A stretch of 32,112 nt of DNA from Chloroflexota bacterium. GTDB lineage: Bacteria > Chloroflexota > Anaerolineae > UBA4142 > SHND01. The notes beneath the pieces are model-generated. The model saw nothing but the letters and a program-made list of their open reading frames with translations. It was not told the DNA's origin and did no database searches. The stretch spans positions 1 through 32,112 of the forward strand of contig JAKOPZ010000105.1 of the NCBI GenBank assembly GCA_029778615.1, in the 5' to 3' direction. Shown one piece after another: positions 3,011-13,722 of this stretch. The position numbers and the translations under genes are program-made. Position 1 is the stretch's first letter. Each line of letters starts with the position of its first letter.

Positions 3011-3042
3011 TCATCAATAAACGCAGTGACGTGCTGCCTTGT

Positions 3043-3079: not shown

Positions 3080-5770
3080 ATGACGACGCTTCCTCTGCAA
3101 GAGCTGGCGCGGCTGCCCGCGCCCAACGACAATTGCGCGATTGTGACGCGCCGCGTCGAACGCGGCACACGCGTCCGCGCAAACGCTCTGGAATTCACCC
3201 TTTCGCACACGCTGCTCGAAGGACATCGCTTTGCGGTGCGCGAAATTGCGCGCGGTGAGGCACTCTTGTCGTGGGGCTTGCCGTTCGGTATGGCGACGCG
3301 CGCGCTTGGCGCGGGCGAATACGTTATCAACGCACAAACGCTCGACGCGCTGCGCGAACGCCGCGTGAATTTTGAATTGCCCGCACAGCCCAATTTCGAA
3401 AATTACGTCACACCGTACCATTTCGACGCGAGCGCGTTTGTGCCGGGGACACAGGTATTGAAATATGACGCACCGCGTCATTTTCTGGGTTATCGCCGTT
3501 CGCCTGCGCGCGGCGTGGGCACGCGCAACATGATTGTGGTGCTGGGACTTTCGTCGCGCGCCGCGAGTTTTGCGCGCGCGCTCGCACTGCGAATGCAGTC
3601 GGCGTGCGCGGATTTTGAAAACATTGACGGCATTGCGGCGGTGGCGCACACGGAAGGCAGCGGCAGTGACCCGCTCAACAATTTTCCCTTGCTTTTGCGT
3701 ACGCTGGCGGGACTGATGGTGCATCCGAACGTCGGCGCGGTGTTGGCAGTGGATGTGCCCGGCGACGGCGTCACACAGCGCGAGCTGCGCGCGTACCTGC
3801 ACGCGGAAAATTATCCGCTCGCCGATGTCACGCACGCGTGGTTCAGCTTGCGAGAGAATTTTGAAGAGGATTTGGCGCGCGGCGCGGAAATCGTGCGCGG
3901 TTGGCTCCCGCAAGTGAACACGGCGGCGCGCACCCCCGAACCCTTGACGCATTTGAAAATCGCGCTTCAATGCGGCGGCTCGGACGCGTTCTCCGGGATT
4001 TCCGGCAATCCCCTCGCGGGCGCGGTGGCACGCGAAATTGTGCGGCACGGCGGCTCGGCGAATCTCGCGGAAACGGACGAATTGATTGGCGCAGAAGAAT
4101 ATATTTTGCAAAACACGCGCGACCTGGCCACCGCGCGCGCGTTTCTGGAAACCATCGAGCAGTTCAAAACGCGTCTCACGTGGCACGGCGTTTCTGCCGA
4201 AGGCAATCCGTCGGGCGGGAATCGCTTTCGCGGTCTTTACAACATTGCGTTGAAATCGCTCGGCGCGGCGATGAAAAAAGACCCCGCGCTGCGGCTCGAC
4301 TATGTGATTGAATATGGCGAACGTATGACTAACGCGGGTTTCTATTTTATGGATTCACCGGGGAATGATTTGGAAAGTATCGCGGGACAAATCGCGGCGG
4401 GCTGCAATTTGATTTTTTTCATCACCGGCAACGGCTCGATTACCAATTTTCCGTTTGTGCCGACGCTGAAATTTGTCACCACGACGGGGCGCTATCATTT
4501 GCTCCAAAATGAAATGGACGTGAACGCGGGCGCGTATTTGGACGGCGCGTCGTTTGACGAATTGACGCGCGATACATTTGAACGCGCGCTCGCGGCGGCG
4601 AACGGCACGCGCACGCTCGGCGAACGCGCAGGACATTCGCAAATTTCGATTTGGCGCAATTGGCGCCAGACCGCGCTGCGCCCGAATGTGTTTTTGGAAA
4701 TGCCCGCGCCGTCCGGCGAACCGCTGCCTGTGCGCGCGCCGTCACATGCTTCACTGCAGCGTGTAATCACCATGCAGCGTGTGGGCGAACAGTACGCGCG
4801 CGAATTTGTTGGTTTGATTGTGCCCACAAGTTTGTGCGCGTCCGAAGTCGCGCGCGTGGCAGTGAATGAATTGAATCGCAAAGGTGTGATGCCGACTGCG
4901 CTCACGCGTTTTGTTACACTCAACCATACAGAGGGCTGCGGGGTGAGCGGCGACGCGTATTTGGCAATGCTCAAACGTACACTGCTCGATTACATGCAGC
5001 ATCCGATGGCGCGGGCGGGACTTTATCTGGAACACGGCTGTGAATTGACACACAACGATTCGATGCGGCATCGCCTCCAAGCCGAAGGGCGCGACCCGCG
5101 CGCATACGGTTGGGCAAGCATTCAACTCGACGGAGGCATGGAAAAGGTCCTGCAAAAAATTGAACAATGGTTTGCCACGCGTTTGGACGCGGCGGACGCG
5201 CCCGTGCGCGAACGCGTCGGTTTGGAAAAATTGCGTGTGGGCATGACCGCGCTCGCCGAGCCGCCCGCAGCGGTGAGCAAAGCATTCGCCCTGCTCGCGC
5301 GTGAGATTGCGCACGCGGGCGGGACCGTGATGCTGCCATCGAACGCGGCACTTTTGAAAATGCCCGCGTTCACAGAAACGTTGTTGCAAGATGCGCCGCG
5401 CGCGACAATGGCGTACGGACAATTTGCCGCGCGCAGTGGACTGCACATCATGGACGCGCCCTCTCAACATTGGGTGGAAACATTGAGCGGTCTCGGCGCA
5501 ACGGGCGCGCAGATTATTTTTGCCTATGACACGCGCGTAATGCAGGGACATCCGTTCATTCCCGTTGTGCGCGTCACATCACGCGTGTCGTGGGAACAGC
5601 CCGCGCTGCCGGATTTTGATGTCGTGTTAGACGGCGAGACGTCAAATGCGTACGCGGCGTTGTGGGACAGTTTGGAAAAAACGTTGCGGGGCGAAATTTC
5701 ACCGCGCGCGTTGTTGCGCGGCGATGTGGATTTTCAAATTACGCGCGGGTGGACCGGCGTTTCCGTTTAG
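3080..5770 (+). CDS. Double UxaA-family protein (tandem fusion of two altronate/galactarate dehydratase-like units)
   Basis: UxaA/GarD enzymes dehydrate sugar acids such as altronate and galactarate and are usually about 500 residues. This protein has 896. Residues 1-~95 form an SAF-like domain. Residues ~147-260 match the middle UxaA domain and ~292-540 the C-terminal one (QCGGSDAFSG from 297, MDSPGND at 424, TGNGS at 449). Residues ~575-690 repeat the middle domain (NHTEGCG at 615, EHGCE at 651). Residues ~717-870 repeat a shortened C-terminal domain (LHIMDAPSQHW at 788). The first middle domain has lost its cysteines (HTEGSG at 190, VPGDG near 226). The second has kept them but its C-terminal partner lacks the QCGGSD motif. 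The ATG at 3080 fits the promoter; 3071 and 3026 are in-frame alternatives. Family membership is secure; the substrate is not. Confidence 0.9.
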   Translation: MTTLPLQELARLPAPNDNCAIVTRRVERGTRVRANALEFTLSHTLLEGHRFAVREIARGEALLSWGLPFGMATRALGAGEYVINAQTLDALRERRVNFELPAQPNFENYVTPYHFDASAFVPGTQVLKYDAPRHFLGYRRSPARGVGTRNMIVVLGLSSRAASFARALALRMQSACADFENIDGIAAVAHTEGSGSDPLNNFPLLLRTLAGLMVHPNVGAVLAVDVPGDGVTQRELRAYLHAENYPLADVTHAWFSLRENFEEDLARGAEIVRGWLPQVNTAARTPEPLTHLKIALQCGGSDAFSGISGNPLAGAVAREIVRHGGSANLAETDELIGAEEYILQNTRDLATARAFLETIEQFKTRLTWHGVSAEGNPSGGNRFRGLYNIALKSLGAAMKKDPALRLDYVIEYGERMTNAGFYFMDSPGNDLESIAGQIAAGCNLIFFITGNGSITNFPFVPTLKFVTTTGRYHLLQNEMDVNAGAYLDGASFDELTRDTFERALAAANGTRTLGERAGHSQISIWRNWRQTALRPNVFLEMPAPSGEPLPVRAPSHASLQRVITMQRVGEQYAREFVGLIVPTSLCASEVARVAVNELNRKGVMPTALTRFVTLNHTEGCGVSGDAYLAMLKRTLLDYMQHPMARAGLYLEHGCELTHNDSMRHRLQAEGRDPRAYGWASIQLDGGMEKVLQKIEQWFATRLDAADAPVRERVGLEKLRVGMTALAEPPAAVSKAFALLAREIAHAGGTVMLPSNAALLKMPAFTETLLQDAPRATMAYGQFAARSGLHIMDAPSQHWVETLSGLGATGAQIIFAYDTRVMQGHPFIPVVRVTSRVSWEQPALPDFDVVLDGETSNAYAALWDSLEKTLRGEISPRALLRGDVDFQITRGWTGVSV

Positions 5771-6200
5771 AACGCGTTTGCATTTTGGCGAGTCGTTCCA
5801 GCGCGTCCTCTAACGTTTGAAAACGCGACGCGCCTTGTTTGTCCGAGACGACAATTTCGTCGTCAAGAATCGCTTGCCTGGTGCGAAGGCGCTGCGGCAA
5901 ATTTTTCAATTCGGGATAACGAAAGGTCATGTCCCGCTGACTGCGCGAAATGAAACGCGCTTGCCCATTCTCGATAAAACACAGTGCGCGCACACCATCC
6001 CATTTGGTTCCAAAAATCCACTCGGCGTCCACAAACGGTTTGTTTACCAATGTGGCAAGCATCGGTTGAATGGCACGCAGCATCGGCGCGCGTTCCGCGC
6101 CGCACACGATGATTGGTTTGCGATTCACGCTGACGCGCAGAGTATCCGGACCGCGCAGCGCGCCGTAATCGTCGTTCGGGTCATCCCAGTTGCGCGTCAT
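5739..6200 (-). pseudogene. Truncated LigD-type ATP-dependent DNA ligase remnant
   Basis: The 153-residue frame resembles the adenylation domain of LigD-type ligases used in non-homologous end joining. It contains AIQPMLATLV, then GTKWDGVRALCF with the motif I lysine (Lys66), SRSQRDMTFRYPEL and AILDDEIVVSDKQGASRFQTL. After about residue 130 the similarity stops. The frame ends in a basic tail (KRKRRSTRA) that runs 32 bases into the end of the double-UxaA gene on the other strand. All later ligase motifs and the OB domain are missing, since such ligases exceed 300 residues. The usual DGE motif reads DDE. No Shine-Dalgarno sequence precedes the likely ATG at 6200. It is almost certainly inactive. 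Confidence 0.75.
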
Positions 6201-6216
6201 AAGATTGCTTTTGTAA

Positions 6217-6248
6217 AGAGACCAAGTCACTGAATGGACTTGGTCTCT
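6217..6248 (-). terminator. Perfect 12-bp hairpin between the two pseudogenes
   Basis: AGAGACCAAGTC (6217-6228) and GACTTGGTCTCT (6237-6248) pair perfectly around an eight-base loop. On the minus strand it lies 15 bases after the stop of the frameshifted small gene and is followed by TTTACAAAAG, a poor T tract. It may be a terminator for the upstream minus-strand genes or a leftover structural element. The plus strand shows no T run. Confidence 0.5.
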
Positions 6249-6263
6249 GATCTCGTTTCTCAA

Positions 6264-8491: not shown

Positions 8492-8632
8492 ATGACTACT
8501 CCCTCCAACGTTTTCATTGTCCTGTACAACGAGGCGCTCTGCGGTGCGTGACGCCGCGCGGTCCATTTATTCTGCATTCTTTTTACTCGCTGCAAGATAC
8601 GCGAAATGCGCTCGCGTTATGGAGCAATTCAT

Positions 8633-8661
8633 TTGGGCTGAACCCGCGCGTCTGCTATAAT
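8633..8661 (+). promoter_or_regulatory. Promoter of the first AlkP gene
   Basis: TTGGGC (8633-8638) and a perfect TATAAT (8656-8661) are separated by 17 bases. The start should lie near 8668, giving a leader of about 39 bases before the ATG at 8707. It probably drives the first genes of the long plus-strand series. Confidence 0.7.
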
Positions 8662-8706
8662 CGTTTCGTTCGGATAACGGCAAGCGCGTATCTGAACAAC
8701 GCAAAC

Positions 8707-10392
8707 ATGACAAGTGCTAAACCTCGCGTGCTCGTGCTCGGTCTTGACGGGGCAACGTGGACGCTGCTTGACCCCCTTCTCGCGCAACAGAAACTCCCGA
8801 CGCTGGGCAAGTTAATTCAAAACGGTTCGCGTTCCATTCTGCGTTCCTGCATTCAACCTTCGTCCGAACAAGCGTGGAGCGCCTTTGCCACCGGCAAGCA
8901 AAACGGCAAATTCGGGCTTTACGGTTTCTATCAACGCGCGAAAAATTCCTACGCGCTGGAATACATCAACGCGTCGCATCGTCGCGCGGCAACGCTCTGG
9001 CGCATCTTGAGTGAACGCGGCAAAAAATGTGTGGTCGTGAATGTCCCGCTCACGTGGCCCGTTGAAAAAATAAACGGCGCGCTCGTCAGTGGCTTGATGA
9101 CGCCGGGGCTTAACAGCGAGTTCACTTTTCCGCACGAATTGAAAAATGAATTGCTCAACGAATTGGGCGAATACATTATTGATGTGGACATTGAACGCGG
9201 GGAAACAGGCGGCGAATCGTTGGATGAACTCGCGGCGCGTGTAAAGCGCATGAGTGAATTGCAGACGCGCGCGTTCGAGTATTTGCTTGAAAAAAATTCC
9301 GATTGGGATTTTGGAATGTTGGTGCATCGCGCGCCGGATATTTTGTGTCACAAATTTTGGCGCTACCAAGACCCGTCTCATCCGTTGTACAACGAACGTG
9401 AAGCCGCGCAGTGGGGTAACGTTATCAACGATTGCTTTGAATATCTCGACGCGTTCAACGCGCGCTTGCTTGAAAAATTCGCGGACGAAAATACAACGGT
9501 GATTGTTTTGTCCGACCACGGTTTCGGTCCGCTCACGCACGCGGTCTATTTGAATCAATATTTCGCACAAAAAGGAATTCTGGCGTACAAAGAACAACAA
9601 GGCAACACCCTTTCATCCGCACTACGCGCGGGCGTGAAACGTTTGAACAATCCTCTCGTCGGCGCGGTCAAGGCGCGAGTATTTGAACTTTTCCCGAAAC
9701 TCAAATCGAATCTGCATTATTCAATGGCATACGGCAACATGGATTGGTCGCGGACAAAAGCGTACGCTGTAGGGACGATGGGAAATGTGTATTTGAATGT
9801 GCGCGGGCGTGAGCCCGAAGGGAGACTGGAGACTGGAGACTATGAAGCCGCGCGAGATGAGGTAATCTCTGTAATGCGCGAATTGCGCGACCCCGAAACG
9901 CAAAAACCCATTTTCGATTTTGTCTATCGCCGCGAAGAGATTTATCACGGCGACGCGTTGGAGGACGCACCCGATGTCGTTGGCTTGATTGATGGTCCGT
10001 ATCACATTGCAGCTGTGGACTGGCGCGGCGCGAACGGAAAAGAAAAAAGCATCGTCGAAAAAGTTGGCAATCAATTATTATTTGTCAGTGACACATCGGG
10101 ACAGCATCGGATGAATGGGATTTTAATTGCGAACGGTGCAGGAATTTCACCCAATCACCCAATCACCCAATCACCCAATTTAATTGACCTCGCGCCGACG
10201 ATTCTGCAAATATTCGGCGAAGCGATTCCAAATGATATGGATGGACGCGTGTTGAATGAATTGTTGTTGCATCAACGCCAAGCCGCTTATGCACCCGCGT
10301 CGAATTTTGAAAATCAAATGGATGGCGAGTATTCGGACGCGGAACGCCAAGCAATCGAGGAACGGTTGGCAGGGCTGGGGTATTTGGGGTAG
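8707..10392 (+). CDS. AlkP-superfamily phosphohydrolase (type I phosphodiesterase/nucleotide pyrophosphatase type), paralogue 1
   Basis: A 561-residue metal-dependent phosphohydrolase or phosphotransferase. The two-metal site can be followed: Asp14 in VLGLDGATW, a nucleophile region SSEQAWSAFATG with Ser53 where relatives have Thr, Asp211-x3-His215, Asp270-His271 in VLSDHGFG, and His467 in SGQHRMNG. No signal peptide is seen, so it is probably cytoplasmic. It is a paralogue of the gene at 12307. The ATG at 8707 lies after the promoter and gives the metal motif at its usual distance; no Shine-Dalgarno sequence is present. Two short tandem arrays lie in the frame, at residues 372-379 and 481-491. 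The substrate is unknown. Confidence 0.9.
   Translation: MTSAKPRVLVLGLDGATWTLLDPLLAQQKLPTLGKLIQNGSRSILRSCIQPSSEQAWSAFATGKQNGKFGLYGFYQRAKNSYALEYINASHRRAATLWRILSERGKKCVVVNVPLTWPVEKINGALVSGLMTPGLNSEFTFPHELKNELLNELGEYIIDVDIERGETGGESLDELAARVKRMSELQTRAFEYLLEKNSDWDFGMLVHRAPDILCHKFWRYQDPSHPLYNEREAAQWGNVINDCFEYLDAFNARLLEKFADENTTVIVLSDHGFGPLTHAVYLNQYFAQKGILAYKEQQGNTLSSALRAGVKRLNNPLVGAVKARVFELFPKLKSNLHYSMAYGNMDWSRTKAYAVGTMGNVYLNVRGREPEGRLETGDYEAARDEVISVMRELRDPETQKPIFDFVYRREEIYHGDALEDAPDVVGLIDGPYHIAAVDWRGANGKEKSIVEKVGNQLLFVSDTSGQHRMNGILIANGAGISPNHPITQSPNLIDLAPTILQIFGEAIPNDMDGRVLNELLLHQRQAAYAPASNFENQMDGEYSDAERQAIEERLAGLGYLG
9822..9842 (+). repeat. Heptamer array (GAGACTG x3) inside the first AlkP gene
   Basis: Three consecutive seven-base units: two exact GAGACTG and one GAGACTA. 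They encode part of RLETGDYE. The same core word occurs at 21696 (opposite strand) and 31826. Confidence 0.85.
10147..10178 (+). repeat. Octamer array (TCACCCAA x4) inside the first AlkP gene
   Basis: Four identical eight-base units in a row, still open in the gene's frame, encoding SPNHPITQSPN just before the conserved LIDLAPTIL segment. This is the only perfect array in the window. Confidence 0.95.
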
Positions 10393-10412: not shown

Positions 10413-11018
10413 ATGTTAAAGCCCGATACAGATATTTCGCCCGAAGAATATCTCGCGCAAGAAGAAAAATCGCGCGACAAGCACGAGTATTGGTTTGGCG
10501 AAACGTACATGATGGCGGGAACGTCGCGCGACCACAATGTGATTGCGGGAAATGTGTACATGTCATTCCGTCAAAAACTTGCCGCAAGACCATGCGCCGT
10601 TTATCAATCTGACGTTCGTTTGCGCTCGCTCAAAGACGACGTTTATACCTATCCTGACGTCATGGTCATTTGCGGAAAAATCGAACTCGACCCGCGTCAA
10701 CAAGATACGGTGATGAATCCGCAAGTGATTGTCGAGGTGTGGTCAGATTCCACGCGCGATTATGACCGTGGTGAAAAATTCAAAATGTATCGCAACATTC
10801 CATCGCTGCGCGAATACGTGATGATTGACCAAGCCGCGCCGTACATTGAACACTATCGGCGCGACGGACATTTTTGGGTCTTGGAAGCGTTGGAAGGAAT
10901 GGAAGCTGGACTGCGCTTGCAGTCTTTGGATTGTGAAATTTCATTTGCAGAAATCTATCGGCAAATTGAATGGGTTGAACAAAAAACAAATCAACGAAAG
11001 AGAACAAAAAAGTTATGA
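10413..11018 (+). CDS. Uma2-family endonuclease (PF05685, formerly DUF820)
   Basis: A 201-residue protein of the PD-(D/E)xK-fold Uma2 family, numerous in Cyanobacteria and Chloroflexota and of unproven role. The start [22 protein letters not shown] and the core [10 protein letters not shown] (Asp82), [23 protein letters not shown] (Glu108, Lys122/Lys124) are typical. AGAGGTG precedes the ATG by five bases. The stop overlaps the sat start as ATGA (11015-11018), so the two are translationally linked despite unrelated functions. The last 15 residues are a basic tail. Confidence 0.93.
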
Positions 11019-12229
11019 GTCAATCATATACCGGCGAAATCGCCCCACACGGCGGTACGCTTATCAATCGCGTCGTCACGGGCGCACAGCGCGAAAAAAT
11101 TCTCGAACGCGCGGAACGCGCCAAAAGCGCGCATCACTATCGCACGCTTCATTCCGTGAACTTGAGCGACCTCGAAATGCTTGCCGTTGGCGCAATGAGT
11201 CCGCTTACCGGTTTCATGGGCAAAGCCGATTACGAAAATGTTGTCAACACCATGCGCCTCGCAAACGGACTCCCGTGGAGCATTCCGATTACGCTGCCCG
11301 TGTCGCGCGAGCTCGCAGACAACTTTGAAATCGGCAAGGACATTGCGCTTGTCGAATCGGACGGACATCTGGTCGGCTTGCTCGAACTCGCGGAAAAATT
11401 CGATTACGACCGCGTGCATGAAGCGAAAAATGTATATCGCACCGACGAAGAGAAACATCCCGGCGTCGCGCGCCTGTACGCGCAAGGCGATGTGTATCTC
11501 GCGGGCGATGTGTGGCTGCTCGACATGCCGTCACAAGCGAAAACGGAATTTCCCGAATTTCGTCATACGCCGCAGCAAACGCGCGAAATGTTTGCGCGCA
11601 ATGGCTGGCGCACCATCGTCGCGTTCCAAACGCGCAACCCGATTCATCGCGCGCACGAATACATTCAAAAGACCGCGCTCGAAATTGTGGATGGTTTGTT
11701 CCTGCATCCGCTCGTCGGTGAAACCAAAGCGGATGATATTCCTGCCGATGTGCGGATGGAATCGTATCAATCGCTTTTGCGCGATTATTATCCGCCCGAC
11801 CGCGTTTTGCTCGGCGTCTTTCCAGCCGCGATGCGCTATGCCGGTCCGCGCGAAGCCATTTTCCACGCGTTGTGCCGTAAAAATTACGGCTGCACGCACA
11901 TGATTATCGGACGCGACCACGCGGGCGTTGGGAATTATTACGGCACGTACGACGCGCAATTGTTGTTTAACGAGTTCACGTCTGCCGAAATCGGTATCAC
12001 GCCGATGAAGTTTGAACACACCTTTTACTGCAAAAAATGCGGCGGCATCGTTTCTTCCAAAACGTGTCCGCATCCGAAAGAAGACCACATCGTTTTGAGC
12101 GGCACGCAAGTGCGCCAGATGCTCGAACGCGGCGAAATGCTTCCGCCCGAATTTACGCGTCCCGAAGTCGCGCAAGTGTTGATTGACGGCATCGCTAAAA
12201 AAAAAGCGGGAGTAGCCAGTCAACAGTAG
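11015..12229 (+). CDS. sat: Sulfate adenylyltransferase (ATP sulfurylase)
   Basis: This 404-residue enzyme joins sulfate to ATP to form adenylyl sulfate (APS), the first step of sulfate activation. The active-site motif [10 protein letters not shown] is at 205-214, GRDHAGVG at 299-306 and [10 protein letters not shown] at 361-370. Cys339, Cys342, Cys351 and His353 look like the zinc site of bacterial homomeric ATP sulfurylases. Length matches the single-chain bacterial form, not CysDN. The start overlaps the Uma2 stop. APS kinase is encoded 3 kb downstream, so the pair can make PAPS. The last residues ([10 protein letters not shown]) run towards the mirrored heptamer array. Confidence 0.97.
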
Positions 12230-12306: not shown

Positions 12307-13722
12307 ATGCCCAATTTCCAATTCCCGCGCGGAAAAAAGAAACGCGTCCTCGTCATCGGTCTCGATTGCGCGGAACCATCGCTCGTTTTTGACCAATATC
12401 GCGCGGAACTGCCTAACCTCAATTACTTGATGACGAACGGCGTTTGGGGCGAACTCGAATCCGTTTTGCCGCCCATCACTGTTCCCGCGTGGATGTGTTC
12501 GCAAACATCAAAAGACCCCGGCACGCTCGGCATTTACGGCTTTCGCAATCGCGCCGATTATTCGTACGAAAAAATGACCATTGCGAATTCGCGTTCCGTG
12601 ATGGAACCCACCGTGTGGGACTATCTCGGACGCGTCGGCAAACAATCGTACATGGTCGGCGTGCCGCCCTCGTACCCGCCGAAACAAGTAAACGGCGGAA
12701 TGGTCGGCTGTTTTCTTTCGCCGAACGTCAACAGCAAATTCACGTATCCCGAAACACTGCGCGAAGAAATTCTACGCGTCGCGCCGAATTACGCCGTAGA
12801 CGCAGAAAATTTTCGTACCGAAAACAAACAGTGGCTTTTGGAAAAAATTTATGAAATGACCCAAGCGCGGTTCAAGGTCATCAATCACTTGATGAAAACG
12901 CGCGACTGGGATTATTTCATGTCCGTCGAAATCGGCGTGGACCGTTTGCATCACGGCTTTTGGAAATATCACGACCCGAAACACATCAAGCACGAACCGG
13001 GCAATCCCCTTTTGAATTCGATTCACGATTACTATGTGTGGCTCGACAAAGAAATCGGCAAGACGCTCGAATTGATTGACGATGAAACATCCGTGATTGT
13101 GATGAGTGACCACGGCGCGAAACGGATGGACGGCGGCATTTGCATCAACGAGTGGCTCATGCAAAACGGCTATCTCGTTCTCGACGAAAAACCCGAGGGT
13201 GTGATTCCGTTGTCGAAAGCGCAAATCAATTGGGACAAAACGCGCGTGTGGGGCGAAGGTGGTTACTATTCGCGCGTGTTTTTGAACGTACAAGGACGTG
13301 AACCAAACGGCATCATTCCGCAGACTGAGTACGAACAAGTGCGCGATGAACTCATTGCGAAATTTCATGCGCTGCCCGACCACGAAGGCAAGCCAATGAA
13401 AACGCACGCGTTCAAACCGACCGACGTATACAAAAAAGTGAATGGCGTCGCGCCCGACCTCATCGTCATTTGGGGCGATTTGTATTGGCGCGGCGTTGGT
13501 TCGCTCGGTTCAGGCGAAATCTATACGTTTGAAAATGATACGGGTCCCGACGACGCGAATCACGCGCAGCAAGGCATGTACATTTATTTTGACCCCAAGC
13601 GCAAACTGGGCGGACGCGAATTGAAAAATTCAAAGCTCGTTGACATTGCGCCGACAGTTTTGAATGAATTCAAAATGCCCATTCCGCAAGACATGATTGG
13701 AAAAATCATTCGCCACGAGTAA
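12307..13722 (+). CDS. AlkP-superfamily phosphohydrolase, paralogue 2
   Basis: A 471-residue relative of the gene at 8707. The same ligand pattern is visible: Asp20 in VIGLDCAEP, Thr58 in PPITVPAW as likely nucleophile, Asp212-x3-His216 in GVDRLHHGFW, Asp268-His269 in VMSDHGAK, and His419 in DANHAQQG. No signal peptide is seen. Its place between sat and cysC suggests a link with APS, PAPS or another phosphoester or sulfoester of that pathway, but this is inference. The ATG at 12307 directly follows the mirrored array and has no Shine-Dalgarno sequence. Confidence 0.92.
   Translation: MPNFQFPRGKKKRVLVIGLDCAEPSLVFDQYRAELPNLNYLMTNGVWGELESVLPPITVPAWMCSQTSKDPGTLGIYGFRNRADYSYEKMTIANSRSVMEPTVWDYLGRVGKQSYMVGVPPSYPPKQVNGGMVGCFLSPNVNSKFTYPETLREEILRVAPNYAVDAENFRTENKQWLLEKIYEMTQARFKVINHLMKTRDWDYFMSVEIGVDRLHHGFWKYHDPKHIKHEPGNPLLNSIHDYYVWLDKEIGKTLELIDDETSVIVMSDHGAKRMDGGICINEWLMQNGYLVLDEKPEGVIPLSKAQINWDKTRVWGEGGYYSRVFLNVQGREPNGIIPQTEYEQVRDELIAKFHALPDHEGKPMKTHAFKPTDVYKKVNGVAPDLIVIWGDLYWRGVGSLGSGEIYTFENDTGPDDANHAQQGMYIYFDPKRKLGGRELKNSKLVDIAPTVLNEFKMPIPQDMIGKIIRHE

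Follow-up and report, generated by a model that had tools for sequence, protein, structure and literature searches.

Gene and domain organization

The window, i.e. the whole 32,112-nucleotide stretch of DNA analysed here, is a 32 kb contig from a 6.0-Mb draft genome in 372 contigs. At 3080–5770 on the forward strand it carries an uninterrupted reading frame (ATG to stop) for a protein of 896 amino acids, which has full-length homologues and is referred to below as the double protein. An in-frame GTG at 3026 is a possible start; the homologues begin near 3080. The Pfam domains GD_AH_C (277 bits) and GD_AH_second (134 bits) are each found in two stretches and above the gathering score, which places the protein in the UxaA/GarD superfamily and bears out an earlier note on this DNA, in which two UxaA-like units were said to be fused. 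This is the sole gene in the source genome with a GD_AH_C domain.

The domains, all encoded on the forward strand, are arranged in the order SAF, middle domain 1, C-terminal domain 1 (C1), middle domain 2, and a shortened C-terminal domain 2 (C2); the first three constitute half 1 and the last two half 2. The SAF (beta-clip) domain (approximately residues 13–87; 3116–3340) has a weak Pfam match and resembles 3k3s_A (Z 14.4) and 3laz_A (Z 13.0). Middle domain 1 (GD_AH_second, residues 137–280; 3488–3919) was identified by Pfam and alignments and retains GTRN (residues 147–150; 3518–3529), which is found in half 1 only. It has lost all three Cys of the family and a Gln, and EGSG (192–195) and PGDG (227–230) lie where the earlier note had placed them as the remains of the Cys motifs. 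C1 (GD_AH_C, residues 290–528; 3947–4663) is intact, as had been claimed, with QCGGSDAFSG at residues 297–306 (3968–3997).

In half 2 the situation is reversed. Alignments and a model of this half show that middle domain 2 (residues ~561–708; 4760–5203) has lost GTRN and kept the three Cys and the Gln. These are Cys586 (in PTSLC; 4835–4837), Cys620 (in HTEGCG; 4937–4939), Cys654 (in EHGCE; 5039–5041) and Gln682 (in SIQLDGG; 5123–5125), the last of which is conserved in half 2 only. EGCG (618–621) and HGCE (652–655) had already been pointed out at these positions, whereas Cys586 was recognized here, as was the fact that Gln682 and Thr/Ser803 accompany the Cys set. C2 (residues 709–896; 5204–5767) has lost CGGSD as well as the stretch that bears NPSGGN in C1, in agreement with the claim that this domain is shortened and devoid of QCGGSD. 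Its C-terminal tail, FQITRGWTGVSV (residues 885–896; 5732–5767), aligns with the canonical C terminus and is not present in half 1; the tail motif FQxTRG is retained in half 2 alone. Since half 2 also has no SAF domain, the protein consists of one whole unit and one SAF-less, shortened unit.

Distribution of double proteins

Among 98 related genomes there are 4 full-length relatives and approximately 20 ordinary UxaA-like proteins. Scanning a single genome for each species with the patterns ALQCGGSD and ANL[AC]ETDE yielded 80 relatives, a few of which contain stops or are cut by a contig end. The double protein is spread over about ten phyla (Chloroflexota, Latescibacterota, Poribacteria, Verrucomicrobiota, Bacillota, Actinomycetota, Gemmatimonadota, Deinococcota, Bacteroidota, Pseudomonadota, SAR324). 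According to profile searches, the gene is present in 69 of 84 Poribacteria genomes, in 15 of 16 genomes from the phylum of the Latescibacterota locus L042, in 8 of 286 from one verrucomicrobial class, in 3 of 299 from Bacilli and, counting full-length matches, in 4 of 400 from Chloroflexota. Carriers include cultured isolates of Halalkalibacter, Alicyclobacillus, Aquibacillus and Kribbella, and complete replicons of Rubrobacter and Pantoea.

Widespread as it is, this fused protein is annotated merely as ‘UxaA family hydrolase’. Searches of open-access literature found no enzyme described as a double UxaA protein, which does not prove that such a description is lacking elsewhere. The altronate dehydratase LguB of Luteolibacter was considered as a characterized example, and the text of its report (PMC12632266), judged by description only, gives no sign of a double protein.

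Complementary loss of conserved residues

Four cysteines of D-arabinonate dehydratase (Cys134, Cys173, Cys208 and Cys276) are conserved across the superfamily, except in sulfolactate sulfo-lyase. They have been proposed to hold one ferric iron in a rubredoxin-like manner, an assignment that according to its authors needs more analysis (PMC6336799). Three of the family cysteines are placed in the middle domain and one, that of CGGSD, in the C-terminal domain. A Paracoccus relative (L217) has conserved Cys at 139, 175, 210 and 278, with the same spacing as in D-arabinonate dehydratase bar one small gap, and judging by this alignment these appear to be the same four residues.

In 127 non-redundant full-length double proteins, a set chosen in part by retained motifs, just four Cys columns reach a conservation of at least 95%, namely 298, 586, 620 and 654. 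The same four columns are all invariant in canonical single-unit proteins (n=25), which have no other invariant Cys columns. Thus, the double protein keeps one family set of four Cys, split 1 + 3: in all 127 sequences half 1 contains 298, which is the fourth Cys of the proposed iron site, while 586, 620 and 654 are in half 2. GTRN is likewise present in half 1 of 127/127. In none of the 127 is there a Cys at, or up to 3 residues away from, the corresponding middle-1 positions 160, 194 and 228. In at least 126 of them the residue of C2 that corresponds to Cys298 (position 724) is likewise something other than Cys, such as Ser, Thr or Ala. That the partitioned residues are those of the proposed four-Cys iron site explains why exactly these are divided. 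Because the set is complete only across both units, the protein is a variant of the known UxaA/GarD superfamily rather than a canonical member, and not a new kind of enzyme.

When proteins of approximately 900 residues with two UxaA domains were compared half by half, the retained motifs were the same in 79/79 homologues from the genome scan, where the C1 motif was partly fixed by the scan patterns and the middle-domain Cys were not. They were also the same in 58/58 full-length matches from the profile search, to which no motif filter was applied. The pattern is therefore not due to chance. A homologue with all motifs in both halves was found neither in these two sets nor among the 127 doubles. 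Eight residues that are invariant in canonical proteins are missing from both halves, including those at C-domain positions 384, 388, 391 and 451 of half 1.

A split version in haloarchaea

A tblastn search of plasmids revealed one haloarchaeal operon that is matched by both halves. Ten haloarchaeal loci (L113, L116–L124) contain a gene A (~397 aa), a SAF gene, and a gene C (~340–390 aa), the operon genes being annotated only as ‘UxaA family hydrolase’. In all ten, gene A retains ECGGSD but no longer has the three Cys or the Gln, and gene C retains VICSH, HGC, GLGCE and IQ..GG but no longer CGGSD. The conserved residues are therefore divided between two units as in the double protein (10/10); the differences are that the units are encoded by separate genes, that SAF is a gene of its own, and that GxRN is present in both units. 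In Halostagnicola larsenii (L113) the region before gene C (9509–9697) carries an annotation of its own, as a small hypothetical protein; the start of gene C is probably further upstream than annotated, as it is at the nine other loci.

Of 69 columns that are invariant in canonical proteins, the ones that survive in just one unit are distributed alike in both systems: 18 are confined to half 1 and to A, 5 (three Cys, Gln and a C-domain Thr) to half 2 and to C, and 0 are discordant (18:0 and 0:5; Fisher p 3.0e-5, a guide only since the columns are mutually dependent). The same partition in separate genes supports the reading of a composite site independently of the fusion.

In a tree without long branches, unit A falls within the canonical ECGGSD group (100/99) and not with half 1, which lies outside. 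A clade uniting half 1 with A was not rejected by the AU test (p 0.145, and p 0.059 for a smaller set), and the branches of half 2 and unit C are too long for placement. On this phylogenetic evidence we favour two origins for the bacterial fused and the archaeal split versions, which would then have arisen separately.

Predicted structure and covariation

An AlphaFold2 model of the whole protein, built with 68 relatives, has a pLDDT of 92.0 and a pTM of 0.92. Its residues 5–529 superimpose on chain D of E. coli galactarate dehydratase GarD (PDB 6u7l) with Z 45.2 and rmsd 2.8 over 441 of 452 residues. Half 2 modelled alone (pLDDT 93.0) matches GarD residues 108–523 with Z 26.4 and rmsd 3.6 over 298 residues, and the GarD fold is thus seen in both models. 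Each chain contains two GarD-like units, and residues near the site that are invariant in the family are mostly present in one unit only. In the model, Cys298, Cys586, Cys620, Cys654 and Gln682 are positioned at or just past the C-terminal ends of beta-strands (293–298, 577–582, 610–613, 644–651 and 677–680).

GarD is a homodimer. Its second domain reportedly forms the dimer interface, and its crystal structure is said to contain Ca2+ in the C domain. Such an interface fits a fused dimer in which middle domain 1 is packed against middle domain 2.

Covariation was estimated as corrected mutual information from the 127 sequences, which amount to ~53 effective ones and in which clades may contribute to the signal. 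Among the top 250 pairs, C1 with middle 2 ranked highest at 1.51 ± 0.42 times expectation, compared with C1–middle 1 at 0.91 ± 0.21 and C2–middle 2 at 0.86 ± 0.19; C1–middle 2 exceeded C1–middle 1 in 22 of 24 subsamples. This covariation weakly favours an arrangement in which C1 would face middle 2. Mean-field coupling analysis of the 127 doubles gave no usable signal, being dominated by variable columns of C2.

Comparison with characterized relatives

GarD shares with the double protein the order SAF, middle and C domain and the fold, but has 526 aa, a single unit per chain with all motifs, and 21–24% identity. The double protein scores 171.4 bits against the NCBIfam GarD equivalog TIGR03248, far below the cut-off of 730.85. 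Half 1 is nearest to UxaA-like QCGGSD proteins of 500 aa (33–37% identity), in keeping with the branch of UxaA and the D-arabinonate and D-idonate dehydratases (~500 aa; PMC6336799). These enzymes differ in having all four Cys on one unit and no second unit.

The (R)-sulfolactate sulfo-lyase SuyAB belongs to the same superfamily and has SAF as a separate gene. It is without the four Cys (PMC6336799; L126), whereas the double protein keeps all four across its halves. Of the two SuyAB genes, one encodes SAF and the other a complete unit, in place of a complementary pair. On a plasmid of Haloarcula litorea (L126, 1535–5072), a gene for SAF is accompanied by a UxaA unit whose middle domain lacks the conserved Cys, and a sulfate exporter and an Ldh-family oxidoreductase are encoded next to them; this pair is likely to be SuyAB in a haloarchaeon.

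A probable composite site and its alternatives

The earlier note had interpreted the protein as a fused homodimer, each half of which kept what a single composite active site needs. The residue partition, the split haloarchaeal version and the superposition of both halves on GarD support that interpretation. In our view the protein is probably a fused asymmetric dimer, an iron-dependent sugar-acid dehydratase of the UxaA/GarD type, with one 3 + 1 Cys site across the pseudo-dimer interface. Ordinary members would have their active site across the dimer interface, two per homodimer, with the middle domain of one subunit (three Cys and Gln) facing the C domain of its partner (CGGSD and the motifs that follow). 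The gene might have been duplicated and fused, after which one site was kept and its mirror image decayed. To the kept site half 2 would contribute Cys586, Cys620, Cys654, Gln682, Thr/Ser803 and the tail, and half 1 Cys298, the rest of C1 and GTRN. One iron on the 3 + 1 Cys could then serve one dehydration, in which the alpha proton is removed and the 3-hydroxyl lost to give a 2-keto-3-deoxy acid. What tells against this reading are the eight canonical-invariant residues gone from both halves, the Ca2+ in the C domain of GarD and the variable gene neighbourhood. By way of analogy only, ABC exporters with one degenerate nucleotide site also have composite sites at a dimer interface, of which one persisted and the other degenerated once the halves had diverged; these proteins are unrelated to the double protein.

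It is unlikely that half 1 by itself is the enzyme and half 2 a regulatory or metal-sensing part with a separate, non-catalytic Fe or Fe–S site. Half 1 does have the full GarD domain order (Z 45), and half 2 is more variable among relatives (33–49% identity to the window) than the whole protein (45–60%). However, half 1 is without three of the four family Cys that every canonical enzyme examined has kept, exactly those three are retained with Gln682 in half 2, and the haloarchaeal pair shows the same split.

Another proposal, that dehydration was abandoned and the metal site kept for a new reaction or for ligand binding, we consider distinctly improbable. The eight canonical-invariant residues gone from both halves would imply a changed substrate pocket, and SuyB is a precedent for a changed reaction, sulfo-lysis, on the same fold. 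Nevertheless, the four-Cys set and most residues of the CGGSD domain are kept without exception in the doubles, whereas SuyB-type proteins have lost the Cys (L126). A draft of 372 contigs might raise the suspicion that the protein is dispensable and decaying, or that a single metagenomic genome was misassembled; both are refuted by a strictly conserved layout in about ten phyla, in cultured isolates and on complete replicons.

It is conceivable, at somewhat less than even chances, that the whole superfamily has a 3 + 1 Cys iron site across the dimer interface, and that this arrangement decayed independently at least twice, in the bacterial fusion and the haloarchaeal two-gene heteromer, to a single composite site. 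This would predict that in GarD, UxaA and their relatives one iron is bound by Cys from two different subunits. The partition between halves offers a readout, from sequences alone, of which residues may cooperate in a poorly understood family of metalloenzymes, and would represent a natural case of a two-site homodimer turned into a one-site asymmetric enzyme, both fused and unfused.

Gene neighbourhood and possible substrates

From its family and some of its gene neighbours we infer that the double protein might dehydrate a sugar acid. In Pantoea soli it is found near a GntR regulator, a fumarylacetoacetase-type hydrolase and a 2-keto-3-deoxygluconate permease. Neighbours in other genomes include an HpcH/HpaI aldolase, an IlvD/Edd dehydratase, an aldehyde dehydrogenase, a 2-hydroxyacid dehydrogenase and Ldh_2, and fumarylacetoacetase-type, DHDPS-type and Gfo/Idh/MocA proteins are encoded beside the haloarchaeal operons. 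There is no constant neighbour or operon: 79 same-strand near neighbours fall into 69 Pfam families, each seen at most 4 times. Any substrate is thus a guess.

Nramp divalent-metal transporters are encoded on either side of the double gene in Rubrobacter indicoceani (L114, 7533–14356) and downstream of the split operon in Haladaptatus pallidirubidus (L123, 5456–6988), which would fit a need for iron or manganese. At about ten loci, many from Poribacteria, the gene immediately preceding the double gene, in most cases in the same orientation, is O-methyltransferase-like (e.g., L054, 7302–7913; L107, 7344–7922).

In the window the neighbours, which comprise a phosphoesterase, a DNA ligase fragment and a luciferase-like oxidoreductase, are uninformative on the substrate. 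Two closely spaced type I phosphodiesterase genes (8548–10392 and 12307–13722, forward strand) enclose an ATP-sulfurylase gene (11015–12229). The ATP-dependent DNA ligase fragment (5739–6263, reverse strand) converges on the double gene, and the ends of the two share 32 bases; the fragment contains only the first half of the Pfam domain followed by a stop, and looks like a truncated or dead gene.
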